From positions 1 through 33,306 of the forward strand of contig PLGM01000203.1 of NCBI GenBank assembly GCA_003139795.1: a stretch of 33,306 nucleotides of DNA, read 5' to 3'. The notes under the pieces are model-generated. The model did not search any database, had not been told where the DNA came from, and worked only from the letters and a program-made list of their open reading frames with translations. Positions 3,091 through 24,088 of the stretch are shown here, piece after piece. Made by a program: the position numbers and the translations under genes. Within the stretch, counting starts at the first letter, position 1. Every line of letters begins with the position of its first letter. The stretch is from Acidobacteriaceae bacterium (lineage in GTDB: Bacteria > Acidobacteriota > Terriglobia > Terriglobales > Acidobacteriaceae).

Positions 3091-4143
3091 CTAACGTCGG
3101 CCCTCGAGCCAGTTGAGGTAATCGGAGTACAGTTTGGTGGACGCCGGAGAGCCGGCAAAAGCCGCGGAGCCGGGCTTATTCATCATTCCCTGGTACTGAT
3201 AGACCAGTATCTTATCGACCCATGGCGAGACGGCCTCCAGTTGGCGCAGAACGCGGTCAAAAGAGGCCGGCATCAAGGCACTGTTATAGACCTCGTCTTC
3301 GAACTCGAAGATCTCGACATCGGCCCAGATCTTTGCCTTCTGCGCGCGGTCGTGGGCTTTTCGCAGCCCCTGATAAAAGGCGGAGGTCTCCGTCACCTTC
3401 GACTTCCGCACCCCCACTTCATCCTGGTAAGCCACAATGTCAACATCCATCGCGTCCAGTTGCCGGACATACTCATCGTCGGGGATGGCTATGCGCGTGC
3501 CGTACGGCGCAATCATGATCTGCGCTTGTGGTTTGAGCTGGCGCGCCAGCCGGGAAAGGGTGTTGACGTAGGTGATAAACTCCGACGTGTAGCGCGGATT
3601 GATGCACGCCTCATCGGGCCAATACCACCCGTAGAAGCTAGGATGGTGGCCGTAGATATTGGTGAGTTCTTCCATCGACTGGAGTCTCTTCTTTGCGGCG
3701 ACGGGATCTGTGATGGTTTTGTCGCTTTCCCAGTTGCCGTAGAATCCGCTACCGATAAAGAACTTGATCTTGTATTTGTCAGCCGCGGAGAGCACTGCTT
3801 CGAGGGGGTTCGCGCAGGCCATGTCCCACTTCGGAAATATCTTCGAGTCGTAAAAAGAGCGGTAATAGACCGCAGTCGCCATAAGCACCAGGTATTCCAT
3901 GCCGGCCTCCGCGATTTCTTTGATCTTGGCATCCCACTGCGCGGCCGTGAAGCGCAGACAAGCTGGATTCCAATCGACTCCCTCGACCGTGGCGTGATGC
4001 TGAAATTCAAACCAGCTCCCGGCGATGGGCTTGATCGCCCCCGGCAGGGGCGAAGCTTTTGTTTCAGCCGGATCGATCGCCAGCGCTGCTGCCCCCATAC
4101 CCAGAGCCACGAGGAAATCCCGACGGTTCAGTTCGTTAATCAT
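3091..4143 (-). CDS. Tat-exported DUF4434-type TIM-barrel protein
   Basis: A 350-aa protein. The chosen ATG (4143) is preceded by GGAAGGAG about 8 bases upstream and gives a good twin-arginine signal (NRRDFLVALGMGAAALA); the 35 codons upstream in the same frame look untranslated. The mature part resembles the DUF4434 family, a (beta/alpha)8-like domain common beside polysaccharide-degradation genes. Visible landmarks are YGHHPSFYGWYWPDEA (164-179), VDIVAYQDEVG, KIWADVEIFEFEDE (271-284) and KILVYQYQGMMNKPGS. Glu178 and Glu277 are candidate catalytic acids by position, which is inference. It is the last gene of the minus-strand receptor-glycosidase run, 120 bases after the large glycosidase, and has a longer paralogue at 17086-18486. 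Function in glycan processing is likely; the reaction is unknown. Confidence 0.85.
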   Translation of the reverse strand: MINELNRRDFLVALGMGAAALAIDPAETKASPLPGAIKPIAGSWFEFQHHATVEGVDWNPACLRFTAAQWDAKIKEIAEAGMEYLVLMATAVYYRSFYDSKIFPKWDMACANPLEAVLSAADKYKIKFFIGSGFYGNWESDKTITDPVAAKKRLQSMEELTNIYGHHPSFYGWYWPDEACINPRYTSEFITYVNTLSRLARQLKPQAQIMIAPYGTRIAIPDDEYVRQLDAMDVDIVAYQDEVGVRKSKVTETSAFYQGLRKAHDRAQKAKIWADVEIFEFEDEVYNSALMPASFDRVLRQLEAVSPWVDKILVYQYQGMMNKPGSAAFAGSPASTKLYSDYLNWLEGRR

Positions 4144-4204
4144 GAAAAGACTCCTTCCAAAGTCGAAATAACAGCGATCGCGATGTTCATCACACGCATT
4201 GACG

Positions 4205-4223
4205 AGCGGGTTTGTCTCCCGCT
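4205..4223 (-). terminator. Short hairpin between glycosidase and DUF4434 genes
   Basis: Inverted repeat AGCGGG/CCCGCT with a 7-base loop in the 120-base gap between the two genes. There is no T tract on the minus strand. It could be a mRNA-processing or stability hairpin rather than a terminator. Confidence 0.25.
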
Positions 4224-4263
4224 GTGCACCTTCGCCCTTCCACGGCACACCGAGTCATGCAAG

Positions 4264-7200
4264 TTAGGAAGCCAGCGACCAAGGCTGGTTTACCGAGGCT
4301 TCCACCTGTTTCACGGCAGCCGCCTGATCCGCGGCTTCGCACAAAATCATCATGCTCAGGGAGCGAACTGCCTGGATAGGCAGCTTCAGCATGCTCCCAT
4401 CCTGCTCGGGCGGAAAGCTCTCGTATTGTTTCCATTGCGCTCCGGCCACTTCGCCCACCAGCACCACCGGTTGCCGCCATCGACTGCCGCCGGGAATGCG
4501 CAGTCGACCTTCTCCCATCGGCAGCAAGAGCAGCGCGCGCGAGCTTTCAAGCGGTTGCTCGTTAATGGAGATGGCCATGAAGTGCAGATCGCTGCCGATC
4601 AGCAATTCCCGGTTCACCCGTACATCCCCCGAGCTTTCCACGGCTTGCACTCGCTTGTCCTTTCCGGCCACCACGGCGCCGGACAGCCGCGCCTGCAGCG
4701 ACAGGCTTACGTCCCCGGCACTGGAAGAAACCACTAAGTCGCGCACGGCGTCCTTCTCGCTGTGGTTTACCAGCACGGTAATCTCCCGTCCGTCCTGTGA
4801 GGGTACACGGAAGCAATGCACTGGCGCCTGCGCCGGCACGATCTTCTCGCCGCTCATGTGAAGGCTTTCGCACAGTGCACGATAGAACGCATGCGCGTAA
4901 AGCTGATACCGCGGATCGCCATGCAGCTCGATGGGGTCTGCGCTGAAGATCACGCGTCCCTTGCCAAGCTGGAACTCAGTAACCACGGGATTGCCGTCCC
5001 GGCTCTCCACCAGCGAATGCGCCCCCGCCAAACGTGTCACGATTCCCGGCGCCGCCACGTATTCCGGCCAGCCTGTCGCTTTGCCCACCACCGGCAGAGC
5101 TCCGTTCTGATAGTCGATATTCGCAAAACGCTCCGAGACAAACTCCACGCCGCAAAGATCCTTCAGCCTCTGCGTCTGTGTCCGTTGGCGCAATCCGTCG
5201 TAGCTGATGTCGCCGGAGATATAGAGTTGCCCTCCCCGCTCCACGAACTCCTTCAGGTGCGCAACCACTTTCTCGTTCGGGCAGTACGGCAGCGGATAAA
5301 GAATCGTCTTCACCTTCGCGGGCAGCTCGTCGATGAACTCGTCCGCTAGCGTAGAGAAGGATACACGTTGATCGATTAGCAGCCGAATGCCGTTGGAAAC
5401 CCCTTCCAGGATGCGCATGCCTTGGCCGCCCTTGCGGTTCTCGCCGGGAATCAGCAGCAGCACGTCGCTTGGTTCATAGCGCGGCCGCAGCATGCGGAAG
5501 AAAAGCCCGGTGTTGCGATAAATGGCCCGCACGTCGCGTGCAATCAGCTCATTGGGGTAGTTGATGCCCCATTCGAACGGCAGGTCCGAAGGATACTTCC
5601 AACACCAGTTCTGGATCTTCGATGCGCCCAGGGCAAAGCCATAGTGCGCAATACCCAGGAAGTATGCCTGTTCATACGCTTCACTGCGGGCGGCGATATA
5701 GTCTTCCGCATCCAACCACGCCGGGTGCGTCTTCACCCCAAATTCGCCTACGTTCAACCCCTTGCCGCGCACCCGCTGGTCCAGAAACTTACACACCTGC
5801 GGGAAGCGATAGTAGTCTTCGTCCGCGGAGTTGAAGTAGCCGAAGTTCGCCAGCTCAAGCTGTCCGAGCGTGGTCAACAAATCGATTCCCGTGAGTGGTA
5901 GCTGGTAGAACTCCGCGGTCACAGGATGCCGCTGATCGGCCTTTCGGATCGAGTCGTACAGGGCATTCAGCCAGCGCCGCACCACCTGCGTGCGAAACTC
6001 AAAGTCGTCCAGCGTGCGCACGTCCCGCCAGTCGTCCTTGCCTGAGTGAATCGTCAGTTTGCCGATCGGAGCTTCCGGAGGCGTCAGTGCCCACGCCTTC
6101 CCGAGCGCTTCGTCCGACCCGTACTTATCTTTCAGATAGCGGTTATACATCTCTTGAATATCCGGCAGATTCGGATCGTGCAACTCCAGATCGCCATTCA
6201 GGTAATACATGATTCCCGCCGCATCCTTGTAGCGCGCCGCGAACGCCTGCACGTAGGCCTGTTGCTCGGCTAGATCCTTGTTGCTTACCGCCGTGTTGCT
6301 GAAGACCAGCATGCCCGGGAAAAATGCGCCGCCCACGCGCTGCACGTTCAGCAGCATGGCGTCGATCCACCGCCACCATGTCTTGGTCGGACGCTGCTGC
6401 GGCCCCCGCAGACCCAACAGGTTCTCGTACACATCGATGCAGGAATCCCGGCAGCCCTGGGCATCGTTCTTCCAAGTCAGCGGGTTTTCGTCCTGGTCGA
6501 TGAAGGTGTGCAGATAGTCGTCCGTCCCCTGCAGAAACAGACTGTGGCCGTCTACCTGGAAATAGTTCTCCCGGAATTCAAACGCCAGGCCCTTACGCAG
6601 CGTCTCTGTGCTCCACACCACGAAGCCCGTCTCCAACTGGTCGACCACCTGCTGGTCCGCGGCCAACTGGACCCTAACGCGATACTGCTCACCCGCAAAC
6701 GAAGCGGGATGCCACTCCGCTTCCACCCGAACCGTCTGTCCTGGAGCAATCGTCACCTTCTGGCTCGTCCGGTACGCGGCTTGGTCCGCGCCGGTCGCGG
6801 CAATCTGCCAGAGCAGTTCCAGTTCCTGGCTCTTCCGGCTCAGGTTCGTCGCCAGCACACACACGTGCACTGGCTCACCGTGCTGGTATGCCGCAAAATC
6901 TGTCTCGCACGCATGCAGGTAACACTTGTTTGCCAGCGCTTGGCTCACGGCGCGCAGGGTGCTTTCTCCCAGCGCCGATCCAGCGGAAAAGATGTCCTGG
7001 TTCTCCACGCCAAAAAACGCCCAACTGCTGCGGGCATAAGCGCCGCGCACATGATGCACCAACGCGCCGGCTGCGCCGCGCTTTCGACCCACGCCGTCGT
7101 ATGCCTCAAGCAGAGGGATCCAGCGCGCCTGGTTCATGCCCACCACGCAGGTTGCGGCGTAGCCTTCAAAGCCTCCGCTCAGCTCCCCGTTGCCACTTAT

Positions 7201-8856
7201 GATCCTCTGTCCCGCCGCCGGACGAATCGCAGAAACCCGCTTCAGGCGGAAATCCGCGTCGAACATCCCGATCTGCTCGGGCGCAATCTGCAGCTCATCC
7301 TGGGGAAATCCCAGCGCGGTATTGATGCGCACCTGGGGCGAACGGCGCTCCAGGCGGAACTGCGCTCCCCAGATTGTGCCCGTAGCGTTTTTCAAGCCAA
7401 ATCCAATGCGCAGCTTGCGGCAGCCGGGCGCCAGATAAATCAGGCGTTCCACCTTGTGCCATGGCAGCGATTCCTGGATTCGCTCCAGCTCAAGGCTCGC
7501 CGCGTAAATCTGTTCTCCCTTTTCGTCGAGCTGCTCAATGCCTGCGTACGCGTAGCCGTCGGGAGCGGACCGCACGTTTGCCGTGCGTATCCATCCCCGC
7601 AAAAAAAACTGGTCGCGCTCGGCGCCGCCCGGCAGTTCGCAATACCAGGCTGCATTCTGATTCCACAGCCCGCTGGGCACGCTAACTTTGCCTGCCGTTT
7701 GCTGTCCTGCCTCCGGCAGCGCCGCGCTTTCGGCGTTCGCATACTTGGGCCCAAGCGCGGCCCACGCGGTGCCTGCCTCTGCAAAGGCCGGCAGCAGGTT
7801 CTCCCCGCTTTCGGCCCTCACCGCCTCATCATAAAACTCCCACTTGCCGGCTTTCGAGACCAGTGGCGCCTGAAAGGCATATCCGCCGGTGCTGAGCAGG
7901 TCGCCGCCATCACCCAGAAACTCCTCCACAGCCGCGCGTGCAGGCAGTGGAAAACTTTCGCCGTAGGGCAGCACCAGCAGGTCGAAAGCAGCGCGATTCA
8001 ACCGCTTCGGATCGGCCAGTTGCTCTGCTGTCAGGAAAACGACATCGTAGGTCTCTCCTAGCACCTTTGCCAATTGTGCCGGGTCCGAGGCTGCGCCGCG
8101 TACAGGAAGGGAATCCCGCAGGATAGCCGCTGCCGGCTTGGAGCGCGCGCCGCTTTCGAGCGCATCCTTGTGCGCCCACTCCAGCGCCTGCCAGCAGTCC
8201 ACCGCATCGTCAAAATCTACCGCGGCAGCGCCTTCGACAAAGGTAAGGTCTGTGAACCAGGCCGAACCGGATGCGCGATAGATTCCCACCACCACCTCAA
8301 ACCACGAAGTGCCCGGCAGGCATGTGAAGCTCTGCGAGAACCGCTGCCAGCCCGCGGTTCCTGTATAGTTGCCGAAGCGCTTCTCCGGAATCTGCTTGCC
8401 GTCCACGGTGTATTCCGTGGGCCGGCCCTGAAACTCGAACTGCGACGCGGTGAAATATGCACCCGCCGCTTCTTCCTGCTGAACGACTCCTGCCGTCTTC
8501 ACCCAGCCGCTGAGCGTATAGGTTTTCCCGATCTCCGGCCCTAACACCAGAAAGCGCGCGTAGTCTCCAGATTCCGTGCCCACCCCCACCGACCGCCGCC
8601 CCGCGTGGCGCGAAACCTCCGCCACCTTGGCGCCATCGGTAAACTGCCAGCCCCAGGCCAAACCCTGAAATCCGCCATCTTCCAACAGCGTAATCGCCTT
8701 GCCTCTGCGGGCCAGAGACTGACGAGCGGTCTCCGGCAGCGCGGCGCTCCACACCTGGCGGCCGAAGAACGCAAGTCCGGTTGCTCCGGCGGCCTGAAGA
8801 AACGCACGGCGCGATTTTGGCCCCATAGCGGAATTCAACTCCGATGCGATCGACAT
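4264..8856 (-). CDS. Giant Tat-exported multidomain glycoside hydrolase (clan GH-A, GH42-like)
   Basis: 1530 aa from the ATG at 8856, which has GGGAGG about 9 bases upstream and yields a Tat signal (KSRRAFLQAAGATGLAFF, residues 14-31). An in-frame start at 8928 is possible but lies against a hairpin. Regions by inspection: a jelly-roll carbohydrate-binding-like domain (about 55-210); a Rossmann/GATase-like segment (240-335, with FDLLVLPYGE); a second jelly-roll (345-505); a beta-rich linker (510-750); a GH-A TIM barrel (about 755-1125); another GATase-like domain (1130-1330, with GGQLYISGD and FQLGKGRVIFSADP); and a beta-rich C-terminus. In the barrel, YYLNGDLELHD (Glu891) is the likely acid/base region and LNVGEFGVKTHP (Glu1038) the likely nucleophile. 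The barrel plus GATase-like arrangement recalls GH42 beta-galactosidases. Substrate unknown; the context suggests an amino-sugar or galactoside-containing glycan. Confidence 0.85.
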   Translation of the reverse strand: MSIASELNSAMGPKSRRAFLQAAGATGLAFFGRQVWSAALPETARQSLARRGKAITLLEDGGFQGLAWGWQFTDGAKVAEVSRHAGRRSVGVGTESGDYARFLVLGPEIGKTYTLSGWVKTAGVVQQEEAAGAYFTASQFEFQGRPTEYTVDGKQIPEKRFGNYTGTAGWQRFSQSFTCLPGTSWFEVVVGIYRASGSAWFTDLTFVEGAAAVDFDDAVDCWQALEWAHKDALESGARSKPAAAILRDSLPVRGAASDPAQLAKVLGETYDVVFLTAEQLADPKRLNRAAFDLLVLPYGESFPLPARAAVEEFLGDGGDLLSTGGYAFQAPLVSKAGKWEFYDEAVRAESGENLLPAFAEAGTAWAALGPKYANAESAALPEAGQQTAGKVSVPSGLWNQNAAWYCELPGGAERDQFFLRGWIRTANVRSAPDGYAYAGIEQLDEKGEQIYAASLELERIQESLPWHKVERLIYLAPGCRKLRIGFGLKNATGTIWGAQFRLERRSPQVRINTALGFPQDELQIAPEQIGMFDADFRLKRVSAIRPAAGQRIISGNGELSGGFEGYAATCVVGMNQARWIPLLEAYDGVGRKRGAAGALVHHVRGAYARSSWAFFGVENQDIFSAGSALGESTLRAVSQALANKCYLHACETDFAAYQHGEPVHVCVLATNLSRKSQELELLWQIAATGADQAAYRTSQKVTIAPGQTVRVEAEWHPASFAGEQYRVRVQLAADQQVVDQLETGFVVWSTETLRKGLAFEFRENYFQVDGHSLFLQGTDDYLHTFIDQDENPLTWKNDAQGCRDSCIDVYENLLGLRGPQQRPTKTWWRWIDAMLLNVQRVGGAFFPGMLVFSNTAVSNKDLAEQQAYVQAFAARYKDAAGIMYYLNGDLELHDPNLPDIQEMYNRYLKDKYGSDEALGKAWALTPPEAPIGKLTIHSGKDDWRDVRTLDDFEFRTQVVRRWLNALYDSIRKADQRHPVTAEFYQLPLTGIDLLTTLGQLELANFGYFNSADEDYYRFPQVCKFLDQRVRGKGLNVGEFGVKTHPAWLDAEDYIAARSEAYEQAYFLGIAHYGFALGASKIQNWCWKYPSDLPFEWGINYPNELIARDVRAIYRNTGLFFRMLRPRYEPSDVLLLIPGENRKGGQGMRILEGVSNGIRLLIDQRVSFSTLADEFIDELPAKVKTILYPLPYCPNEKVVAHLKEFVERGGQLYISGDISYDGLRQRTQTQRLKDLCGVEFVSERFANIDYQNGALPVVGKATGWPEYVAAPGIVTRLAGAHSLVESRDGNPVVTEFQLGKGRVIFSADPIELHGDPRYQLYAHAFYRALCESLHMSGEKIVPAQAPVHCFRVPSQDGREITVLVNHSEKDAVRDLVVSSSAGDVSLSLQARLSGAVVAGKDKRVQAVESSGDVRVNRELLIGSDLHFMAISINEQPLESSRALLLLPMGEGRLRIPGGSRWRQPVVLVGEVAGAQWKQYESFPPEQDGSMLKLPIQAVRSLSMMILCEAADQAAAVKQVEASVNQPWSLAS

Positions 8857-12796: not shown

Positions 12797-13609
12797 CTAT
12801 TCGATGGCGGTCGCCGGGATCTGCAGCACAGCCCGGTAGCGGTCGCCGCGATATGCGGAGAGCGCCGTCTCCACCGGTAGCCCGTCCGTACTCCATAGCG
12901 TGCGCGATATCACCAGCAGGCTCGCCCGCGCCTTAACCTCGAGCAGTTCTGCCTCCCGGCGCGTCGCCGCGCGCGCCTCCAAGATCTCGTCCGCGCGGCT
13001 CACTCGAATCCCATATCGCTCCCGCAGCGTCTGGTAAAGCGACAGGCGCGAAAAATCAAGCTTCTCCACTCCCGGGAAGCGTTCAAGCGGAAGCCGGATT
13101 TCCTCGATGGCTACAGGCAAACCGTCGGCCAGCCGTAACCGAAGCAAGCGGTAAATCGGAGCATTCACCGCAATGCCGAACTGCGACGCCACCTCTGCAG
13201 GCGCTGGAGAGGTTTCCGCCTCGAGCACCCGCGATGTAGCCTTGATGCCCAGCGCCTGCATCTCCGCCGTAAAGCCGCGCAGGTGCGTGATGTCCTTCTC
13301 CACGCGCGGCTGGCTGACAAAGCTCCCCTGCCCCTTGTGGCGCGTAGCAAATCCCTGGCTCTTCAGTACCTGGAGCGCCTGCCGCGATGTCATCCGGCTG
13401 ACCCTGTAAATCCGGCTCAACTCTTCTTCGCTCGGCAGTGAATCTCCGGCGCGCAACCGTCCCGACTGAATCATTTTCAGCAGTTGCGTCTGGATCTGAA
13501 AGTACATCGGTGTGAAGCTGTTCTTATCTAAGGGTTCGAATTCCCAATCCCTGCGGTTGGTTGCCACCGGTGTGGGTATTTGGTCGCGTTGTTGCTTTCT
13601 TCCTTGCAT
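12797..13609 (-). CDS. GntR-family transcriptional regulator, HutC subfamily (UTRA domain)
   Basis: 270 aa. The ATG at 13609 has GAGGA eight bases upstream. The N-terminal winged helix-turn-helix (about 34-99) shows the GntR signature: FQIQTQLLKMIQSGRLRAGD, LPSEEELSRIYRVSRMTSRQ, ALQVLKSQGFATRHKGQGSF. The C-terminal half (about 110-262) is a UTRA effector-binding domain (IYRLLRLRLADGLPVAIEE, SLYQTLRERYGIRVSRADE). HutC members such as NagR and DasR sense sugar phosphates, often GlcN-6-P or GlcNAc-6-P, and release operators when bound. The adjacent amino-sugar enzymes make such an effector plausible. Predicted target sites with a G-N-N-TATACA core lie before the receptor, nanE-nanK and the FAD oxidoreductase genes. 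Effector identity and target sites are inference; the family is not in doubt. Confidence 0.93.
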   Translation of the reverse strand: MQGRKQQRDQIPTPVATNRRDWEFEPLDKNSFTPMYFQIQTQLLKMIQSGRLRAGDSLPSEEELSRIYRVSRMTSRQALQVLKSQGFATRHKGQGSFVSQPRVEKDITHLRGFTAEMQALGIKATSRVLEAETSPAPAEVASQFGIAVNAPIYRLLRLRLADGLPVAIEEIRLPLERFPGVEKLDFSRLSLYQTLRERYGIRVSRADEILEARAATRREAELLEVKARASLLVISRTLWSTDGLPVETALSAYRGDRYRAVLQIPATAIE

Positions 13610-14108: not shown

Positions 14109-15146
14109 TCAATAGCTTGCTCTGCTCAACAGGATGACCGCTACCAGCAATACCGCGATTCCCGAATACATCCAGGTCCGCGCGCGTGCCGGAGCCTGTC
14201 TCCACTCGCCTAAGCCTATCCCGATCGCGTTCGCCAACAGCAGGCCCACCGCCAGGCTGAGGGGCCACCCGATGGAGGTACCCAGCGATCCCAATCGTGG
14301 AGCCGAAGCGCCGTACACAAAAATGCTTCCTCCCCACAATAATGCCATCACCGCCGACAGGCCGTAGAGCCGAAATCGCCCCGGTTGGGCAAACTTCTTG
14401 ATGCTGCCGTTCTTGCGGAACAGGTAAAAGCAGAATCCCAGGTTGGCTACCGAACCTGCACCCAGCATGATCCACCAGATCAGGTTGACGCTTGAAAACT
14501 GGCTCAGCCCCGCCGCGCGGCCATAGTCCGCGATCGGCTGCGCCAGGGAAAAGCCGATATTGAACACCGCCGACAGCACGCCCGATCCAGCGGCCATCAG
14601 CAGCGCGACGCCGACGGGACGCGCATGTCCCACCATGCCGCCTCTCTCCGCGTCAACGCCCGCAGCCCGCTCGCGCATTCGTCCTGCCCAGCCGCACAGC
14701 GCAATGCCTGCAAGTTCCACCGTCACAGCGCCCAGGATTCTTTCTCCCGAGGGCTTCAGCAGCTTGTGCGGGGCCAGCAGCAGGATCGGCAGCAGAGACC
14801 CCAGCGCTGAGCTAATCGCCAACACAAGGGTATTGGCGAGCGAAATCCCGATTGCGCTCACGCTCTGTCCGAACAGCAATGCCCCAAACCCCCACGCAAA
14901 CCCCGTGAGAATCGCAATCCATACGGCGTGCGCGGGCGCATGCGCGATAATTATCCAGCTCTGCGGCGCAATTGCGCTCACAATCGCGGCCGGCATCAGC
15001 AGGCATGAAATCACGATGAACAGGCCCCACACGTTCTCCCATTCCCATCGCCCCAGAAACCGCATCGGCAGGGTGAAACTTCCATTCATCAGGCCCGACA
15101 AAATCGCCAGGAGCGCCCCGGCAAGAAGCATGCTGTTCATTCTCAT
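14109..15146 (-). CDS. RhaT-family sugar:proton symporter
   Basis: 345 aa and strongly hydrophobic, with about ten membrane segments, for example MLLAGALLAILSGLMNGSF, WGLFIVISCLLMPAAIVSAI and SIGWPLSLAVGLLLANAIGI. The start with NGSFTLPMRFLGRWEWENVW and the inner segment TGFAWGFGALLFGQSVSAIG match the L-rhamnose-proton symporter (RhaT) family of the drug/metabolite transporter superfamily. It sits in the inner membrane and would import a monosaccharide with protons. Divergently placed to the NanE-NanK fusion across about 200 bases containing a shared promoter region, it more likely carries an amino sugar or another glycan product than rhamnose; no rhamnose catabolic gene is nearby. The start is uncertain: ATG 15146 or the ATG two codons later, with only a GGTGGAACGG stretch upstream. 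Confidence 0.88.
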   Translation of the reverse strand: MRMNSMLLAGALLAILSGLMNGSFTLPMRFLGRWEWENVWGLFIVISCLLMPAAIVSAIAPQSWIIIAHAPAHAVWIAILTGFAWGFGALLFGQSVSAIGISLANTLVLAISSALGSLLPILLLAPHKLLKPSGERILGAVTVELAGIALCGWAGRMRERAAGVDAERGGMVGHARPVGVALLMAAGSGVLSAVFNIGFSLAQPIADYGRAAGLSQFSSVNLIWWIMLGAGSVANLGFCFYLFRKNGSIKKFAQPGRFRLYGLSAVMALLWGGSIFVYGASAPRLGSLGTSIGWPLSLAVGLLLANAIGIGLGEWRQAPARARTWMYSGIAVLLVAVILLSRASY

Positions 15147-15256: not shown

Positions 15257-15288
15257 TTGTCACACCATAGTAGGCTATACAATAATAC
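15257..15288 (+). promoter_or_regulatory. Candidate nanE-nanK promoter with TATACA operator-like motif
   Basis: TTGTCA at 15257-15262 is followed by an AT-rich stretch offering TACAAT (15278-15283, 15-base spacing) or AATAAT (15281-15286, 18-base spacing) as -10. GGCTATACAAT at 15273-15283 resembles the GTATATAC and GTCTATAC motifs found in two other promoters of the locus. The position about 65-90 bases before the chosen nanE-nanK start supports that start over the longer frame. The divergent transporter may share the region. Confidence 0.4.
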
Positions 15289-15349
15289 AAATCGGCGGCG
15301 CGGTAAAATCTGCCGTCCGTTTGCCATGCAAGGGAAATGGGGAGATCGA

Positions 15350-16978
15350 ATGTCCGCGATTTTTAAGCAATTGAAAGGCAGATTAATCGTTTCCTGCCAA
15401 GCTTCCCCCGGCGATCCTCTGGAAGACACGAACGCCATTCGTCGCATAGCACTGGCTGCGATAGGCGGAGGAGCGGCCGGCCTGCGCGTCAACAGCGCGG
15501 AGCATATAGCGGCTCTGCGGCGGGATACAAAGCTCCCCATCATCGGCATCCAGAAACAGTATGGCCCAGCGGGGCTGCGCATCACACCCGATTTCGCCGC
15601 CGCCGCCGCCTTGGCCGCCGCTGGTGCCTCCATCATTGCTCTCGACTGCACTAATCGCGTCTGGCCCGATGGCGACCCCTGGCAAATGCTCATCGAGCGG
15701 ATTCACCAGGAGCTACGCCTGCCCGTCATGGCCGACATCGCCACCCTCGATGAGGCCCTGGCCGCCACCGCTGCTGGCGCCGACTGCGTGGGAACCACCC
15801 TGAACGGATATACCGAGCGCACCCGCGACAATCAAGGCTTCAGTTGGACGCTGCTCGTGCAGATGGCGCAACAGCTCCATGTCCCCATCATGGCTGAGGG
15901 GCATATCTCTACTCCCAAGGAGGCGCGCCGCGCTATCGACGGTGGCGCATGGTGCGTTATAGTCGGCTCGGCCATCACTCGTCCCGGAGTCATCACCGCC
16001 AACTTCGTGGATGCTCTTGAGCAGTCCGGATCCTCGGCTCCTGCAATAGGCGTGGATATCGGCGGCACCTCCATCAAGGCTGGCCTGGTGCAGCGCAGCG
16101 GAGAAGTTCTCCTCACTTCCCAGACGCCTACCGACGCTGGCAAAGGGTGCGATGCCATCATCGCCGGTCTGGTCCAGGCTGTCGAACAGGTGCTGGCAGC
16201 CGCGCGCGACAAGCACTTCCAGCCGGTGGGCCTTGGCATCGCCACTGCCGGCGCCATCGATCATCGCGATGGCAGCATCTTCGCAGCCACCGACAATCTC
16301 CCCGGATGGGCTGGGTTCCAACTGCGCGGCTTTGCCGAGGAACGCTTTCATTTGCCGGCTTTCGCCGTGAACGATGCGCAGGCTGCCGGGCTCTCGGAAC
16401 TGTATTTCGGCCTCGGTCGTAGCCTCTCCGATTTTGTAGTCCTTACCATCGGCACGGGCATCGGCGGTGGCATCGTTACCGGGGGCAGACTTCTGCGCGG
16501 CCAGCACGGCTTTGCCGGATCCATCGGGCACGGTGTGATCTGCGCCGGCGGCCGGCCTTGCAACTGCGGCCGTAACGGCTGCTTGGAAGCCTATGTCTCT
16601 ACTGCTGCCCTGCTCCGGAATTATCGCGAACTCGGCGGAGCCGTCCCTGAGGGCAAGATCGACGACGCGGACCTTGCCCTCAAAATCAACCATCTCGCAC
16701 GCAGTGGCGATGCAGCCGCGCAAAAGGCCTATGCGGTGATGTCCGAATTTCTGGCTGAGGGAATCGCCAATCTCTTCAACCTCGTCGATCCCCAGGCAGT
16801 CCTTCTCTCAGGCGGTCTTATTGAGGAATACACGCAGTTCGTTCCCGGCGTGGAAAAGCAGGTGGCAAAGCTTCTGCACTTCGGAACAAAGCGCCAACCC
16901 CAGGTCCGCACTGCCAAGGCCGGACGCTTTGCCGGCGTGCAGGGGGCGGCTGCGCTAGTGTTTGAATCCGGCCGCTAG
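15350..16978 (+). CDS. nanE-nanK: Bifunctional ManNAc-6-P 2-epimerase / ManNAc kinase (NanE-NanK fusion)
   Basis: 542 aa from the ATG at 15350, which has GGGGAG six bases upstream. Residues 1-225 are a NanE (beta/alpha)8 epimerase converting ManNAc-6-P to GlcNAc-6-P. Signatures include GRLIVSCQA, IIGIQKQYG, VMADIATLDEA, GTTLNGYT, MAEGHISTPKEARRAIDGGA and VIVGSAITRPG. Residues about 232-540 are a ROK-family kinase: IGVDIGGTSIKAGLV at the ATP site, VNDAQAAGLSE, TIGTGIGGGIV, and GHGVICAGGRPCNCGRNGCL, containing the zinc-binding CNCGRNGC. Together they would turn ManNAc into GlcNAc-6-P in the cytoplasm. Fused NanE/NanK enzymes exist in databases but the two are usually separate genes. No NanA lyase or NagA is seen nearby. 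It is followed by a DUF4434 gene on the same strand about 105 bases on. Confidence 0.93.
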   Translation: MSAIFKQLKGRLIVSCQASPGDPLEDTNAIRRIALAAIGGGAAGLRVNSAEHIAALRRDTKLPIIGIQKQYGPAGLRITPDFAAAAALAAAGASIIALDCTNRVWPDGDPWQMLIERIHQELRLPVMADIATLDEALAATAAGADCVGTTLNGYTERTRDNQGFSWTLLVQMAQQLHVPIMAEGHISTPKEARRAIDGGAWCVIVGSAITRPGVITANFVDALEQSGSSAPAIGVDIGGTSIKAGLVQRSGEVLLTSQTPTDAGKGCDAIIAGLVQAVEQVLAAARDKHFQPVGLGIATAGAIDHRDGSIFAATDNLPGWAGFQLRGFAEERFHLPAFAVNDAQAAGLSELYFGLGRSLSDFVVLTIGTGIGGGIVTGGRLLRGQHGFAGSIGHGVICAGGRPCNCGRNGCLEAYVSTAALLRNYRELGGAVPEGKIDDADLALKINHLARSGDAAAQKAYAVMSEFLAEGIANLFNLVDPQAVLLSGGLIEEYTQFVPGVEKQVAKLLHFGTKRQPQVRTAKAGRFAGVQGAAALVFESGR

Positions 16979-17085
16979 ACCGTTCGTCTGGTTGCGATCA
17001 GGCAGCCGGTCTCGATAAGCCTGCCGGCCTCTGGAGCGGACCTCGCGTCGTGGCTGCAGGCTTTCCACACAAGCGGAGGCATCAA

Positions 17086-18597: not shown

Positions 18598-19857
18598 CTA
18601 CACCGCACTGCTCCCCAGCTTTCCCTCGCCAAATTTCTGGTTGGTGATCAGAGGCTTTGCCCACAGCGAAACCGCGAAGATCCACCCAAAGGTTACGTAC
18701 AACAGACACATGCCCGTGCGCAGGCCAAATGAGTCGGCGATCCGCCCCGTGAGCAGCGGCATGATTGCTCCTCCCATGATTCCCGAGCACATAATTCCGG
18801 CCAGCGCTCCCTGGTACTCCAGCACCGAGTTCAGCGCGAGAGAAATGATGATCGGCCACATCACCGACGCGAACAACCCTATGCACGGAAACGCAAATTT
18901 GGAGATTGCGGCCGGACCAAAAAGCGCCACGGAAAGACAGGTCAGCGCACCGATGGCGAAGGCTCCGAGCACGCGGCGGCTGTCAAACAACTTCAGCAGG
19001 ATCATGCCCACGAAGCAGCCCACGGTTAGCAGGCCCCAGAACCAAGCCACTGCCAATGCCCCGGTGGTTTGCGGATCGTAGCCGTGATATTTCCACAGAA
19101 ATTCCGACATCCAATTCGCCGTACCCTGCTCCGACCCCACATAGAAGAACACGCTGAAGAAGTAGAGCCACACCACCGGTTTTTGCAGAAGATAGCGATA
19201 CATGCCGGAGGTACCCGCTGATTCATCCACCTTCCGCTTCACTTCAGGAAACCGCGAGAAAGCCAGAGCCAGCGTGATGGCGGCGATCACAATCGCAAAA
19301 ATCCAGTACATCGAGATCCATCGCATCGTCTCCGGCACGATTGCGGCCAGTGTCGACAGAAAAAAGTTCCGCCCCGGCGCCAGTTCCAGGTTGCGGACAA
19401 CATACGAATAGATCTGCGGGCTTAAGAACGACGCGATTCCGAAAATCAGTTGGGCAAATGCCGAGTTAAAGGCAAAGTGCTCTTCTCCTCCTGCCACCCG
19501 CAGCAGAGGGTTGATGGCCACCTGCAGCGCAGCCATGCTGCTCCCAATCAGAAACAGCGATACCATCGCTACGGGGAAGATGTGCAGCCACGCAAACAGG
19601 AGCGACGCTGCCAATGCAATTGAGAACATTCCCAAGATGACCGGCTTCTCTCCCCAGCGTTCGACCATGAAGCCGGCGGGAATCGAAAACACCCCATAGG
19701 CAACAAAGAAGGAGAAGGGAAGAAGTCCAGCAGCAAAAAGACTCAGATGAAAGCTCTGGATAATGTCCGGAACAATTGGGCCAAGAATATTTGTCACAAG
19801 CGACATGACAAAAAAGATCGCAAAAACAATCGTTACCAGGTACTTGCTGCGCTTCAT
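18598..19857 (-). CDS. MFS sugar transporter (FucP/NagP-like)
   Basis: 419 aa with about twelve membrane helices in two halves joined by a charged loop near FPEVKRKVDESAGTSG. Features include IFFVMSLVTNILGPIVPDII in helix 1, GVFSIPAGFMVERWGEKPVI (the MFS loop 2-3 signature region), AALQVAINPLLRVAGGEEH and GTANWMSEFLWKYHGYDPQT. The NPLL and GTANWM elements resemble the fucose:proton symporter group, which includes the GlcNAc transporter NagP. The ATG at 19857 has GAGG about 10 bases upstream. It is the last gene of a minus-strand operon, 23 bases after the SIS enzyme gene. Likely substrate is GlcNAc or a related amino sugar, from context. It converges with the DUF4434 gene at 18486, with no clear terminator between. 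Confidence 0.88.
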   Translation of the reverse strand: MKRSKYLVTIVFAIFFVMSLVTNILGPIVPDIIQSFHLSLFAAGLLPFSFFVAYGVFSIPAGFMVERWGEKPVILGMFSIALAASLLFAWLHIFPVAMVSLFLIGSSMAALQVAINPLLRVAGGEEHFAFNSAFAQLIFGIASFLSPQIYSYVVRNLELAPGRNFFLSTLAAIVPETMRWISMYWIFAIVIAAITLALAFSRFPEVKRKVDESAGTSGMYRYLLQKPVVWLYFFSVFFYVGSEQGTANWMSEFLWKYHGYDPQTTGALAVAWFWGLLTVGCFVGMILLKLFDSRRVLGAFAIGALTCLSVALFGPAAISKFAFPCIGLFASVMWPIIISLALNSVLEYQGALAGIMCSGIMGGAIMPLLTGRIADSFGLRTGMCLLYVTFGWIFAVSLWAKPLITNQKFGEGKLGSSAV

Positions 19858-19880
19858 GGAGTTTGTGCCTCGGTTTGCTG

Positions 19881-20933
19881 CTACTCTTCGGTCGTAACTT
19901 TTGTTGCGTGCATGAAGTTTCCGGCTTCAAAGCCTGCGTTTGCTGCAAGGGCCAATGTCAGCATCTGGACAGGCAGAATCTCGACAATGGGCAGCAGGCG
20001 TGAGAGCTTGTCGGGAATGCGCAGGGCTGCAATCTCCGCGGCGGGCCCGATTAGCTCTGCCCGTCCTCCGCCATCGCGTATGTCGCGCACCAGCTTGCTG
20101 TTCAGCGCGCGGATATTGGCTTCGCCCTCCATTACCAGCACCATGGTCTCCGGCCCTGCCATCTCCATCGGACCGTGCCGGAAGGCCGCGCTGCTCATGG
20201 CTTCCGCAGTCGAACGTGTCGACTCCTTCGTGATCAGCGCGCCCGTCTCGGACGAAGCCAGTGACCGCCCTCGTCCCACGATGAATAGCTGGCGTATGTT
20301 CTCCATCTCGCTGGCCAGCGACTCCACATGCTCGCGCCAACGCGCCAGATAACTGGCTACCAACGCCGAGCCTGCCTGCATCTCGGCATACAAGGCGTCG
20401 GCCACTTCGCCGCGCCATGCCGCTCCCAGAATTTCCAGGGCGGCCAGCGTTCCCACATATGTCTTGGCGGAGACGGAAAACTCTTCTCCGCACTGAGTCA
20501 GTATCAGAAAGTTCGCCTGCCTGGCAAGCGGGCTGTCCGCAGTGTTCGTAACGCCAATCACCGTTGCCCGCCCCGAGTTCTGCTCCAGCATGCGAACTAC
20601 CTCCGCACTGCGGCCCGACTGCGACACGGCCACAATAATCGTGCTGCTGGCCAGCAGGCTGGGCATCGAGTGAATCAGTTCCGACGAGTCTACGCGCTTA
20701 ACTGGTTCCCCTTGGGCGGTCAACATCAGCTCCAGTGGATACAACGCGTGCAGCGAAGATCCCATGCCAGTTAACACCACGCGTGCATGCCCCTGGTGCC
20801 GTATCTGCGCGAGGCGGTCAAACAGGTCTGCTTTACAACGGAGATCTTTGAGTGTGTCCTGTAGAGCCTGCGGCTGATCCAGAAGGTCGCGTAGATAAGG
20901 GCCCTCAACAATACGGTACGATGTACGTTTCAC
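19881..20933 (-). CDS. SIS-domain amino-sugar-phosphate deaminase/isomerase (NagB-II / GlmS-isomerase-like)
   Basis: 350 aa containing two SIS domains. The first shows VVLTGMGSSLHA (53-64) and VAVSQSGRSAEVV (101-113), which bind the sugar phosphate. The second shows LFIVGRGRSLASSETGALIT, followed by KESTRSTAEAM and AFRHGPMEM, the equivalents of the GlmS isomerase catalytic segment. The end, MHATKVTTEE, resembles the GlmS terminus with its active-site Lys. It lacks the glutaminase domain, which points to an alternative glucosamine-6-phosphate deaminase (GlcN-6-P to Fru-6-P plus ammonia) rather than a synthase. It lies 14 bases downstream of the ROK kinase gene and 23 upstream of the MFS gene, a tight operon. 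An AgaS-type role on another amino sugar remains possible. Confidence 0.88.
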   Translation of the reverse strand: MKRTSYRIVEGPYLRDLLDQPQALQDTLKDLRCKADLFDRLAQIRHQGHARVVLTGMGSSLHALYPLELMLTAQGEPVKRVDSSELIHSMPSLLASSTIIVAVSQSGRSAEVVRMLEQNSGRATVIGVTNTADSPLARQANFLILTQCGEEFSVSAKTYVGTLAALEILGAAWRGEVADALYAEMQAGSALVASYLARWREHVESLASEMENIRQLFIVGRGRSLASSETGALITKESTRSTAEAMSSAAFRHGPMEMAGPETMVLVMEGEANIRALNSKLVRDIRDGGGRAELIGPAAEIAALRIPDKLSRLLPIVEILPVQMLTLALAANAGFEAGNFMHATKVTTEE

Positions 20934-20947
20934 AACTTCTCCTCCAG

Positions 20948-21859
20948 TTAGCGGTCAAAGCGGTTGTGCCAAACCTGTGCGGCGCCAATCAGACCGGCGT
21001 TGGCGCCCAAGGATGAAACCGCAATTTCACAGTTCTCCACGGGAACCAGACGACACTTGCCGCGGACGATCGCGTGAATGCGGTCCAGCAGCAGGTCGGC
21101 ACTCTGCATCACGCTGCCGCTCAGCGCAATCACCTCCGGCATCAGTATCGACACCACGTTGGACAGCCCGAGCCCCAGATACTTCGCCAGACGCTCCACT
21201 GCTCGCTGCGCTGAGGCATGACCCGCCCGCGCCAGCATGCAGATCTCCTTGCCTGTGCGACGGTCGTCGTCCGGGTTCTGTTCCGCGTACCACTGCTCCA
21301 GCGCGGGCCCCGACGCCAAGCTCTCCCAGCAGCCTGAGGCGCCGCACGTACACAGTGGACCGTCCGGTTCCACAATGTGGTGGCCAATCTCCGGGTGGGC
21401 ATGGTTCGCTCCCCGGTATACGTCTCCGTTCAAAATGATGCCGGCGCCGATGCCAGTGCCCACCGTAATGCTGATCAGGCTGCGTTTGCCCTGGCCTGCT
21501 CCCCACCGTGCCTCACCCAGCGCCGCCGCATCCGCGTCGTTCTCCAGCGCTGCCGTAACGCCGAAGGCGTCGGCCAGCTCCCGCACCGGGTTCCAGCCCT
21601 GCCAACCTGGAAGTGTGTTTACGTCGCCAAGCTCGCCCGTAATTGGGTCTACCGGGCCCGTACACGCAATGCCGATGCCCGTCAATCCAGCACCAGTCTC
21701 CAGAACCTGTTTGTGCAGTATCTGCAGGATTCTGTCGCGCGCGTTCGCGGGGCCGCGTTCCATCTGAACCGGAATCTCCGTGCGGGTAACCACGGCCCCG
21801 TTGTCGTCTATGAGGCCAAGAGCAATCTTTGTGCCTCCAATATCAACGCCAGCTATCAT
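20948..21859 (-). CDS. ROK-family sugar kinase (N-acetylglucosamine kinase/glucokinase-like)
   Basis: 303 aa, the usual length for a ROK kinase. Visible motifs are AGVDIGGTKIALGLID (phosphate-binding), ENDADAAALGEARWGAGQGK with the catalytic Asp, ITVGTGIGAGII, and the zinc site HPEIGHHIVEPDGPLCTCGA followed by SGCWESLASG. The HPEIGHH form is common among NagK and glucokinases. It starts at ATG 21859 with GGGAG five bases upstream, 27 bases after the glycosidase stop, and is followed closely by the SIS deaminase and MFS genes. With those neighbours GlcNAc is the likely substrate, giving the cluster a second kinase besides the NanK domain of the fusion protein. Glucose or another hexose cannot be excluded. 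Confidence 0.9.
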   Translation of the reverse strand: MIAGVDIGGTKIALGLIDDNGAVVTRTEIPVQMERGPANARDRILQILHKQVLETGAGLTGIGIACTGPVDPITGELGDVNTLPGWQGWNPVRELADAFGVTAALENDADAAALGEARWGAGQGKRSLISITVGTGIGAGIILNGDVYRGANHAHPEIGHHIVEPDGPLCTCGASGCWESLASGPALEQWYAEQNPDDDRRTGKEICMLARAGHASAQRAVERLAKYLGLGLSNVVSILMPEVIALSGSVMQSADLLLDRIHAIVRGKCRLVPVENCEIAVSSLGANAGLIGAAQVWHNRFDR

Positions 21860-21886
21860 GCATACTCCCTATGCGCAGATTGGATC

Positions 21887-24088
21887 CTATTTCCAATCCA
21901 GCACAGCTCCATCGTATGGGTCAAGTTGCAGCGACCATCCCGACTGCTGGTGCGTCACTGCCTGTTTTCCGTCTGCCGTTACGCGGCTCAGAGCCTGCAC
22001 CGGCAACGAAGTCTGGATCGACACCTGCTTGGTCTGAGCCGTATGGTTCACCACCACCAGATATCCGTGGTCCTTCGCGTTCAGGGCCGCGGCCTCGACT
22101 GAGGGATCGTCGGTCCAGACCGTCGCCTTGACGGCGGCCCACTCGCGCAGCGCCTGGTAAATGCGGTAGGTCGCGTCCTTGCCTTCAAACGCGACTGGCT
22201 GATTGGCCAGGTACATCTCGATCGGATACGCTGACAGCAAGGTCTTTCCTCGCCCCAGCGAATTCGCCACCAGCGCAGGCCGCCCATCCTGGTCGACGGC
22301 AATCACCTGACCGCTGCCCACCTGCAACGTCGCGGTCCACTGGTTCAGCGTATCCGCAGACGCAGTGTAGGTAAAGGTGTCTCCGGGCTTCAGGCCACCA
22401 AAGGGCGCCACAATCTTCAGCGTCACCTCCCGCGCCGGTGCACCATCCACAAGCCGCGCGCCGAAGATATCTTCCATGTCGGGAATCGCCGCGTCTGCGC
22501 TCACAGAGGCATACACGACTCCGCCGTTTTCCACGTACGCCTTGGCCTTACCCCAGAAGTCCGTGTGCACATGCACCAGCGCTGTGTCCGTGCTCGTCAG
22601 CGGAGAGGCCAGCACCAGCATCGGATACTTCTGCCAGTCGTCATATTCGCGCGGAAACTCTGCCTTCATGCCCGCGCGCCGCGTCAGGATGTACGACGAA
22701 AGCCATGCGCCCGTCAGGCGCGTGTTGTCGTCCGGGTACGTTGTGGGTGCCTGTCCGTTCACGGAACCGCCTTCCGCCGTCGAGGTGTAGGGTGCGTACT
22801 CCGGCCCGGTCAGGCCAAAGTGAGATGCGTCTCCGTACGGCTTTGACCACTCGTTCGGCACCAGCAACGCCACTTCTGCCGGCGCCGGCTCAATGCCTGT
22901 CAGGTCCAGGCCCGCCATCGTCTTCGCAAACTCGGCAAGCATTTTCGCTGCCGGCCGCTCCTTGCGGTCCCATGTCACGATGCCGAACCGCGTCTCATGT
23001 GGCGAGCGCAGATACGGAACCTTCGCATACTGGCCGGGCGCCGCATCTGTGTAGCACCAGATCAGAAAGCCGTTTGCTCCCGCCCCGAGCCCTGAGTACA
23101 TGGCTGCCCTCTCATAGGCCGCAATCGACTCCGGCTTGTACTGCGCCGACGAAGCCCCTAACTCCTGGATCATCACCGGGTGGCCGGCTCCCTCCGTCAG
23201 CGCCGTTTCAAAGGCTGCGCCATAGGTCTGCCGCTCCGAAAGCATCGGGTCCGGAAACAGCTTCGGCGCGTAAATCGTGTAGGGGTGAACGCTGAAAAAG
23301 TCCACTTCATTCTTCAGCAGGTCCGGCCGGAATGGCCCGTGCCCCACGTCCTCCATTGACGTCCCCACCACCAGAGGATGCAGCGTGTCGTAGCGCCGCA
23401 GCGCTCCCGTGATCAGTCGCGTCCAGTTGATCGCCATCGAGTCCGTCGTCGAGCCCGCGACAATCCAGAAAGGCGGCTCGTCCGTCAAGTCCCACGAAAG
23501 AATCGCGCTCGATTTCCCAAAGTGGCGCGCAAGCTCCTGAGCAAAGTCCGTCTCCAGCCGCAGCATAAAGGGGTCCGAGTGCGGATTCCGTCCCTGCCGG
23601 TACGGCACGTCCCAGTACGCTTCGCCCACTTCGCCGCCGATCAGCATCTCCGGGTGGAGATAGATTTTGTAACGGTTGGCGAGCGAAATCAGGGTATCCA
23701 TCTGCCGAAAGGCTTCCGGATTGTAATCGTCTGGCCGTGGCTCGAACCACGACCACACCAGGTCGAGCCGTATCGTGTTTACACCCAGCGCGTGCATCTG
23801 CGCAAAGTCGGCTTCTATCTCTGCCGCATCCCATTGATAGGGCCATTGCATCGCGGCCTTCGCCGGCACCCAGTTCACCCCCACGGGCAGGAATCGCTTC
23901 CCGCCCGCGGAAAAGTAGTTGCCGTCCAGCTTGACTGCGGGAAGGGGTGCGGACATCTGCACAGCAGGGGCTTGCGCCGATGTATCCGGCTTCGCCAGTT
24001 GCTGAGCAGAGCCGGAGAACAGGGCAAAGTTACTTGTGCAACAAACTCCGCAGATCAGACTGAGATTGCAAAGAGTTTTCCATTTCAT
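21887..24088 (-). CDS. Secreted clan GH-A glycoside hydrolase (GH5/mannanase-like) with GATase-like C-terminal part
   Basis: 733 aa. The ATG at 24088 has GGAAGGA nine bases upstream; the N-terminus reads as a signal peptide (NLSLICGVCCTSNFALFSGS). A TIM barrel occupies about 50-390: FLPVGVNWVPAKA, LGVNTIRLDLVWSWFEP, ILSWDLTDEPPFW (Glu204, acid/base), FFSVHPYTIYAP, and VMIQELGASS (Glu309, nucleophile). This matches retaining clan GH-A enzymes such as GH5 cellulase/mannanase-like proteins. The second half contains an amidotransferase-like fold (about 440-620; YPMLVLASPLTS, VENGGVVYASVSADA, LGRGKTLLSAYPIEMYLA) and a short beta-rich tail, similar in plan to the 1530-aa enzyme. It is second in the minus-strand operon after the FAD oxidoreductase. 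Linkage specificity is unknown. Confidence 0.88.
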   Translation of the reverse strand: MKWKTLCNLSLICGVCCTSNFALFSGSAQQLAKPDTSAQAPAVQMSAPLPAVKLDGNYFSAGGKRFLPVGVNWVPAKAAMQWPYQWDAAEIEADFAQMHALGVNTIRLDLVWSWFEPRPDDYNPEAFRQMDTLISLANRYKIYLHPEMLIGGEVGEAYWDVPYRQGRNPHSDPFMLRLETDFAQELARHFGKSSAILSWDLTDEPPFWIVAGSTTDSMAINWTRLITGALRRYDTLHPLVVGTSMEDVGHGPFRPDLLKNEVDFFSVHPYTIYAPKLFPDPMLSERQTYGAAFETALTEGAGHPVMIQELGASSAQYKPESIAAYERAAMYSGLGAGANGFLIWCYTDAAPGQYAKVPYLRSPHETRFGIVTWDRKERPAAKMLAEFAKTMAGLDLTGIEPAPAEVALLVPNEWSKPYGDASHFGLTGPEYAPYTSTAEGGSVNGQAPTTYPDDNTRLTGAWLSSYILTRRAGMKAEFPREYDDWQKYPMLVLASPLTSTDTALVHVHTDFWGKAKAYVENGGVVYASVSADAAIPDMEDIFGARLVDGAPAREVTLKIVAPFGGLKPGDTFTYTASADTLNQWTATLQVGSGQVIAVDQDGRPALVANSLGRGKTLLSAYPIEMYLANQPVAFEGKDATYRIYQALREWAAVKATVWTDDPSVEAAALNAKDHGYLVVVNHTAQTKQVSIQTSLPVQALSRVTADGKQAVTHQQSGWSLQLDPYDGAVLDWK

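Follow-up and report, generated by a model that had tools for sequence, protein, structure and literature searches.

A long acidobacterial protein of clan GH-A descent with a replaced active-site signature and a possible link to N-acetylmannosamine

The window analysed here is the whole stretch of 33,306 nucleotides of contig PLGM01000203.1, from an acidobacterium living in soil. It carries on its minus strand a gene, called GHX below, that runs without a stop from position 8856 to position 4264 and encodes 1530 residues, the length given to it by an earlier reading made from the letters alone (the sequence-only reading); frame 1 of the opposite plus strand contains several stops. To judge from its sequence and predicted fold, GHX is most likely a secreted glycosidase of clan GH-A descent from an uncharacterised family. 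Few sets of enzymes are understood as well as clan GH-A, whose signature is an Asn-Glu pair on strand 4 with a Glu on strand 7. GHX and its close relatives, which we call the GD type, have Gly-Asp in place of Asn-Glu; relatives that keep the pair are called the NE type. In the list below, Z and root-mean-square deviation (rmsd) refer to structural matches of the predicted models.

4264..8856, minus strand: GHX, the subject gene; 1530 amino acids, GD-type GH-A-derived protein with a twin-arginine leader
8227..8697, minus strand: jelly-roll 1, CBM16-like, residues ~54-210 (Z 16.8, rmsd 3.0, 144 aligned)
7807..8133, minus strand: first part of the N-terminal Rossmann-like segment, residues ~242-350, read from model secondary structure only
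7342..7764, minus strand: inserted jelly-roll 2, residues ~365-505 (match within ~342-505: Z 15.7, rmsd 2.6, 148 aligned)
6622..6924, minus strand: Ig-like beta-sandwich, residues ~645-745 (match to 5t9a: Z 14.6, rmsd 2.0, 102 aligned)
5482..6588, minus strand: TIM barrel of GH-A type, residues ~757-1125, from the predicted model and structure matches
6424..6426, minus strand: Glu811 on strand 2, in 46/47 GD rows (Arg in 28/28 NE-type rows)
6190..6198, minus strand: Asn887-Gly888-Asp889 at the strand-4 end, where clan GH-A has x-Asn-Glu
5911..5913, minus strand: Glu982 on strand 5, in 47/47 GD rows
5743..5745, minus strand: Glu1038 on strand 7, the nucleophile position, in 47/47 GD rows
4867..5469, minus strand: GH42M-like Rossmann domain, residues ~1130-1330

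Architecture and family of GHX

Two AlphaFold2 models of GHX, each built on a ten-row alignment, cover residues 40-760 (mean predicted local distance difference test score, pLDDT, 82.1; predicted TM-score, pTM, 0.77) and residues 520-1530 (mean pLDDT 82.6, pTM 0.84). The order of parts is leader, jelly-roll 1, Rossmann-like part 1, jelly-roll 2, Rossmann-like part 2, Ig-like sandwich, barrel, GH42M-like domain and beta-rich C-terminus. The barrel is predicted as the (beta/alpha)8 barrel of clan GH-A, with strands at residues 775-781, 809-816, 844-851, 884-887, 979-983, 1002-1007, 1033-1039 and 1080-1083. A GH-A barrel, two jelly-rolls and Rossmann-like segments before and after the barrel had all been named in the sequence-only reading, and the models agree with it: the barrel and both jelly-rolls come with the structural matches listed above, the front Rossmann-like segment with the secondary structure of the model, and the rear one with a GH42M profile match to residues 1182-1307 that stays below its cut-off (19.7 against 25.8 bits) and a structural match of the domain fold. 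The second part of the front segment (residues ~541-645, likewise read from model secondary structure only) comes after jelly-roll 2, which, on this reading of the secondary structure, would interrupt a single Rossmann-like domain. A DUF4350 match is found in 6/10 members of the ten-row alignment, as a match not placed along the proteins. Jelly-roll 1 is present in the rows of Acidobacteria and Armatimonadetes in that alignment and missing from those of Planctomycetes.

The leader of GHX has the motif SRRAFL at residue 15, and RR-x-F stands near the start of the open frame in 6/6 acidobacterial members, which favours the earlier claim of export by the twin-arginine translocation (Tat) pathway, although the Tat models PF10518 and TIGR01409 found no match in GHX at E 0.01. 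Such a leader is not family-wide, since five other members of the ten-row alignment with a visible leader have none, as judged by eye; L009, whose start is cut off, lies outside the leader count.

A scan of named genomes gave nine homologues with 31-84% identity (three from Acidobacteria, one from Armatimonadetes and five from Planctomycetes), and because these extend over most of the length and come from three phyla, the frame and the architecture are more than chance. Used as a protein query at E 1e-20, GHX matched 1/396 Acidobacteriota genomes, namely its own. The wider family was counted with the ten-row profile at E 1e-60, including the genome used as search centre, and was found in 56/251 genomes of Armatimonadota, 7/392 of Planctomycetota and 4/299 of the class to which the genome of locus L005 belongs. 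The sequences analysed from Armatimonadota are 57 of the places matched, not all. The alignment of 79 rows used below, from Acidobacteriota, Armatimonadota and Planctomycetota, includes GHX and a distant match, L081:5381-8470, that serves as the tree root.

No Pfam or NCBIfam family rises above its cut-off over GHX (Pfam Glyco_hydro_42 scores 19.8 bits, under the cut-off of 21), and no solved chain among the matches listed has the whole architecture; the GH42 profile matches 10/10 members at E 0.01. Judged by Pfam, NCBIfam and solved structures, the GD type is apparently an undescribed GH-A-derived family, and a described CAZy family for it may exist. The suspicion of the sequence-only reading that the protein may fall outside described families agrees with the lack of a Pfam or NCBIfam family over the cut-off, but the ground for it is not Glu891, as had been thought; it is the change of Asn-Glu to Gly-Asp together with the loss of an Arg, a His and a Tyr.

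Replacement of the active-site signature

In profile alignments to GH42 structures, Gly888-Asp889 falls on the Asn-Glu pair and Glu891 lies outside it, and Gly-Asp also aligns with the Asn-Glu of the NE-type relatives (3 rows in a smaller alignment, 28 in the alignment of 79 rows). Glu891, earlier taken for a catalytic residue, was rejected as the acid/base, with E, Q, R, F, A, S, T or K at this place in relatives; the homologous place is that of Asp889, kept in 47/47 GD rows. Glu1038, the other residue proposed earlier, does by its position on strand 7 look like the catalytic-site Glu. The 79 rows divide into 47 with Gly-Asp, 28 with Asn-Glu, 2 with Asp-Asp, 1 with His-Gln and 1 with Trp-Glu. 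The 47 Gly-Asp rows (6 acidobacterial, 32 armatimonadotal, 9 planctomycetotal) all have Gly-Glu at 1037-1038, so that the strand-7 Glu of the clan is present by position in every GD row and the Asn-preceded Glu of strand 4 in none.

The exchange extends beyond this pair. Gly888, Asp889, Gly1006, Phe1008, Glu1038 and Trp1084 are each found in 47/47 GD rows, as are Glu982, Tyr984, Asp1014, Lys1042, His1044, Trp1047 and Arg1057, with Glu811 in 46/47 and Leu850 in 44/47. At the corresponding places the NE type has Arg811 (28/28), His850 (20/28), Asn888-Glu889 (28/28), His1006 (28/28), Tyr1008 (27/28) and both Glu1038 and Trp1084 (28/28), with Lys1042 in 2/28 and His1044 in 9/28 rows; by these residues, it looks like an ordinary GH-A enzyme. 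Arg811 and Trp1084 may be equated by strand with active-site residues of GH5; the mapping of His1006 rests also on the profile alignment to GH42, in which the Arg811 column falls on a Ser of 4uni. In the model, Glu811, Glu982, Gly1006 and Glu1038 fall on strands 2, 5, 6 and 7, respectively, and Gly888-Asp889 just past strand 4, with block pLDDT values of 57 at Glu811, 66-75 at the Gly888-Asp889 motif, 60 at Glu982 and 80 at Glu1038.

In a tree inferred with the motif columns masked, the 47 GD rows form one side of a split with an SH-like support of 0.998, and together with the two Asp-Asp rows they form one side with a support of 0.915. The 28 NE rows do not separate from the rest in this way, and L167 sits among them. 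A smaller tree of 18 rows gave the Gly-Asp group a support of 74/99, and for this reason the split of the GD type is not beyond doubt. That the active-site signature was replaced, and the replacement fixed, is nevertheless firm, and the chemistry discussed below is what we infer from it.

Some relatives depart from both types. The two Asp-Asp proteins (L137:5044-9381 and L137:11761-15906) lie in one locus, resemble the GD type in having Glu982 and Gly1006, and could represent an intermediate. The family member L167:7261-11787 has His-Gln at the Asn-Glu place and a 3-keto-disaccharide hydrolase domain in front. An NE-type member, in one open frame, lies behind an alpha-L-rhamnosidase (GH78) at L086:1-5049.

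Among known enzymes, those of GH42 (3tts, 5e9a, 4oif) align with GHX through the barrel, the trimerisation-type Rossmann domain and the beta-domain that follows, and have the strand-7 Glu in common with it (among the matches listed, Foldseek E 1.5e-26 for 3tts; VIA Z 23.6-24.0, rmsd 3.2-3.4, 584-594 aligned). GHX differs from them in having Gly-Asp and not the Asn-Glu motif of GH42, in its extra jelly-rolls and second Rossmann segment, in an identity of only 14-17%, and in its length of 1530 against about 690 residues, which the sequence-only reading had rightly stressed. The GH164 beta-mannosidase Bs164 (6t7g, 6t5o) has the same three-domain core (6t7g: Z 24.0, rmsd 3.9, 573 aligned), with an identity of 12% and a weak match of the ten-row profile to 6t5o (E 0.077). 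Its catalytic residues are Asn159-Glu160 and Glu297 (PMC7105311); GHX, with Gly888-Asp889 in place of Asn159-Glu160, lacks the GH164 motif. The best of the structural matches listed, the GH5 mannanase 1rh9 (Z 25.9, rmsd 2.9, 293 aligned), covers the barrel only, and the GH5 exo-beta-mannosidase Op5Man5 (7bob) has a barrel and a GH42-type domain like those of GHX (Z 24.4, rmsd 3.4, 473 aligned). Five GH5 exo-mannosidases have Arg58, Asn155, Glu156, His240, Glu281 and Trp317 in common (PMC8233224), and by position GHX would keep only Glu281 and Trp317 of this set. The archaeal exo-beta-D-glucosaminidase 8oug has a barrel and domains similar to those of GHX (Foldseek E 2.8e-24), and the exo-glucosaminidase GlmA, like GHX, deviates at the residue before the acid/base; GlmA has Asp178-Glu179, with the Asp for C2-NH2 and the Glu acid/base kept (PMC6566704), whereas GHX has Gly-Asp. 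The listed structural neighbours as a whole thus include GH5 mannanases and mannosidases, the GH164 beta-mannosidase and 8oug. Also close are the NE-type relatives of Armatimonadota and Planctomycetota (28 rows by profile), which have the barrel, Glu1038 and Trp1084 in common with GHX; we know of no function for them.

The locus in Acidobacteria and other phyla

GHX lies among the following genes, in which ManNAc stands for N-acetylmannosamine.

3091..4248, minus strand: DUF4434 protein with a Tat leader, 15 bases downstream of GHX; kept in L003
9016..12339, minus strand: TonB-dependent outer-membrane transporter with a CarboxypepD_reg domain (domain match)
12797..13609, minus strand: GntR/UTRA regulator (domain match)
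14109..15146, minus strand: RhaT-like sugar symporter, within ~5.3 kb of GHX or less in 6/6 acidobacterial loci
15257..16978, plus strand: NanE-ROK fusion (ManNAc-6-phosphate 2-epimerase and NanK-like kinase), facing the genes on the GHX side
17050-18486, plus strand: second DUF4434 protein
18598..24088, minus strand: neighbouring genes for an MFS transporter, a SIS deaminase-like protein, a ROK kinase and a glycoside hydrolase with an Asp-Glu motif

The NanE half of the fusion has all six active-site residues (Gln, Arg, Lys, Asp, Glu, Arg) named for NanE in PMC8482478, as matched by eye, and the matches of its kinase half include ManNAc kinases from humans and bacteria. NanE is present in 6/6 genomes of the acidobacterial members and within ~6.5 kb of GHX in 5/6; in a sample of 396 acidobacterial genomes, which includes that of the window and was not drawn like the six, 23 have NanE anywhere. 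The gene order of L003 is that of the window. In L004, RhaT, GntR and GHX follow one another with short gaps, and in L005 RhaT adjoins GHX. L135, a locus found after the ManNAc idea had formed, has NanE, GntR, GHX and RhaT as neighbours, with a BadF-type, NagK-like kinase replacing the ROK domain; counting this kinase, a linked NanE, NanK-type kinase and transporter are found in 5/6 acidobacterial loci. L136 has RhaT and two GH2 genes near GHX, one of the latter with mannosidase Ig domains. NagA is above its cut-off in 3/4 genomes searched. For DUF4434, no paper naming it was found in the literature searched, and comparison with solved structures gave nothing convincing.

An open frame at 15713-16723 on the minus strand was rejected as a gene: it is antisense to the NanE-ROK frame and gave no Pfam match. 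No RNA or tRNA feature was found in the window at gathering threshold or by ARAGORN, and a scan for promoters and terminators (8 promoter-like against 3.9 expected, 15 terminator-like against 13.2) was not used. Farther along the window, at 26642-28096 on the plus strand, an arabinose/fucose-isomerase-like protein stands beside an FAD-dependent oxidoreductase; a fucose-isomerase-like gene is also found near NanE in L062. In three armatimonadotal loci (L149, L151 and L152), the GD gene adjoins genes for an MFS transporter and for a GHMP kinase resembling galactokinase, identified through Pfam in L149 and through similarity in the other two.

Proposed function and its alternatives

Polymers of cell walls and capsules contain ManNAc, for which the epimerase route is known. 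We tentatively propose, as a reading still short of probable, that GHX is a glycosidase of clan GH-A descent with a rebuilt -1 subsite that acts on an N-acetylated amino sugar and, in Acidobacteria, releases ManNAc. The case for this product is the presence of a RhaT-like symporter near 6/6 and of NanE near 5/6 acidobacterial loci; amino-sugar glycans fit this gene context better than galactosides do. Asp889 on strand 4 would take the place of the acid/base and Glu1038 on strand 7 would keep that of the nucleophile, presumably in a retaining reaction. The new fixed residues Glu811 and Glu982, and probably also Lys1042, His1044 and Arg1057, would replace the lost Arg, His and Tyr. In Acidobacteria, GHX would set ManNAc free, probably by attacking a beta-ManNAc glycan at its non-reducing ends; the RhaT-like symporter would import the sugar, NanK and NanE would convert it to GlcNAc-6-phosphate, and NagA and a deaminase would finish the route. 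It is possible, if not yet to be expected, that the GD type as a whole is a new family in which a single lineage exchanged most of its active-site signature, after which a new catalytic arrangement (Asp889, Glu982, Glu811, Glu1038, Lys1042 and His1044) became fixed, and that its acidobacterial members are dedicated ManNAc-releasing enzymes.

The role proposed for Gly888 starts from work on GlmA, by which the position ahead of the acid/base touches C2-OH where it is Asn and C2-NH2 where it is Asp, and an acetamide would clash with such an Asp (PMC6566704); in Bs164, Asn159 binds O2 of mannose (PMC7105311). As this residue senses the C2 substituent (PMC6566704), Gly888, in place of the Asn that holds this substituent, would leave room for an acetamide. 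The glycoside hydrolase at 21887-24088 on the minus strand, GH5/GH42-like, provides a parallel: it has Asp-Glu in place of Asn-Glu, as do all of 14 sequences (that of the window and 13 others; the count leaves out fragments that lack the motif, and L105, whose gene is that of L102), and its closest solved relative, Op5Man5, has Asn-Glu. Its relatives lie with SIS in 10/10, MFS in 9/10 and ROK in 8/10 loci (nine genomes, L107 and L108 being from one genome and the matching genomes G854 and G865 left out). This enzyme resembles an exo-glucosaminidase serving a glucosamine pathway, and its gene context is as expected for free glucosamine. The two Asp-Asp relatives of GHX on L137 have ROK and SIS genes and a gene for a UTRA regulator as neighbours. 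These agreements between motif and context are correlations.

Several findings weigh against the release of ManNAc by GHX. Outside Acidobacteria, NanE was found in 0/6 genomes with a GD gene of the first search and in 0/4 Planctomycetota genomes with a GD gene, and in Armatimonadota it is present in 12/31 genomes, always on a contig other than that of the GD gene analysed. The neighbours of GD genes in these phyla are mixed (GH78, GH43, apiosidase, galactokinase-like), with SIS beside 2/31 armatimonadotal GD loci and no consistent neighbour gene found in the planctomycetotal ones, and with no linked case outside Acidobacteria, a NanE linkage for the whole family was rejected. Within Acidobacteria, the NanE of L136 is on another contig, and the six members form one clade (support 0.999), so that their linkage to RhaT and NanE does not represent six independent events. 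NanE-ROK and RhaT occur without GHX in 4/20 NanE loci, two of them in one genome (the loci compared are 20 of 24 NanE places matched); another enzyme can therefore feed this module, and the DUF4434 proteins could be ManNAc-releasing enzymes. The confidence of the model at the active site is middling, and with pLDDT below 50 for residues 1041-1056 it stays uncertain whether Lys1042, His1044 and Trp1047 face the sugar. Finally, an Asp as the acid/base and the loss of Arg and Tyr near the nucleophile are unusual for GH-A.

The replacement of the strand-2 Arg and the strand-6 His and Tyr in 47/47 GD rows, with new charged residues fixed, would agree with another chemistry in the same family and fold: Glu811, Asp889, Glu982, Glu1038, Lys1042, His1044 and Arg1057 might hold a metal or might serve hydrolysis with inversion, or else the reaction of a lyase or a transferase. 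There are glycosidases with unusual catalytic pairs, such as the inverting GH156 with Asp14 as the base and His134 as the acid (PMC6811678); GH156 itself was not among the 50 structural matches listed, which excludes nothing. We regard a departure from GH-A catalysis as rather unlikely, given that both types retain Glu1038 and Trp1084 and that the strand-4 place still holds an acid, and the CBM-like modules and sugar-uptake genes suit a hydrolase. Clearly unlikely, in our judgement, is that GHX cuts a neighbouring sugar (GlcNAc, mannose or other) of a ManNAc glycan, with another enzyme of the locus, e.g. a DUF4434 protein, releasing ManNAc. The DUF4434 genes flanking GHX, the NanE-RhaT modules without GHX and the missing NanE link of GD genes outside Acidobacteria would all agree with such a division of labour, but of the loci compared, the window and L003 are the only ones in which DUF4434a adjoins GHX, whereas GHX, RhaT and GntR adjoin one another in L004 and L135. 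Pseudoenzymes that only bind sugars might lose most canonical catalytic-site residues, as GHX has; Asp889, Glu982, Glu1038, Lys1042, His1044 and Arg1057, all at 47/47, are yet what is expected of an active site under selection, and we find this explanation barely plausible.

Two readings would make GHX a more familiar enzyme. An ordinary long beta-galactosidase or beta-mannosidase of GH42 or GH164 is suggested by the barrel with a GH42M-like domain, by the GH42 and GH164 enzymes among the best structural matches listed and by the GH42 profile match in all ten members, but it is very improbable with Gly-Asp for Asn-Glu in every GD row and a GH42 profile score of GHX that falls short of the cut-off. 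NanE and NanK also serve sialate catabolism, so that a sialidase-like GHX could feed NanE via sialic acid. BNR_2 sialidase matches number 0 in the genome of the window, 0 in that of L003, 3 in that of L004 and 1 in that of L005; the place would be vacant in the former two, and in the genome of L004 one BNR_2 match lies, away from the GHX locus, 1.4 kb from a NanA-family match, which (with the match in the genome of L005) also speaks against ManNAc release as the source for NanE. NanA-family matches occur in all four genomes, but each scores below the nanA cut-off and lies on a contig other than that of NanE, and the structural matches listed are beta-hexosidases. For the genome of the window, with neither a BNR_2 match nor a NanA-family match on the NanE contig, the sialate route was rejected; at the GHX locus in general it is unlikely, and a sialidase-like GHX is hardly to be believed.

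No glycosidase named as ManNAc-releasing was found in the literature searched, which lacked most subscription journals; if the acidobacterial members do release ManNAc, they would fill this gap. The family also suggests a simple rule by which the C2 substituent could be read from the residue ahead of the acid/base: OH from Asn, NH2 from Asp and NHAc from Gly. The GD type, standing in three phyla beside NE-type relatives that keep the signature, would be a natural before-and-after experiment in the rebuilding of a glycosidase active site.

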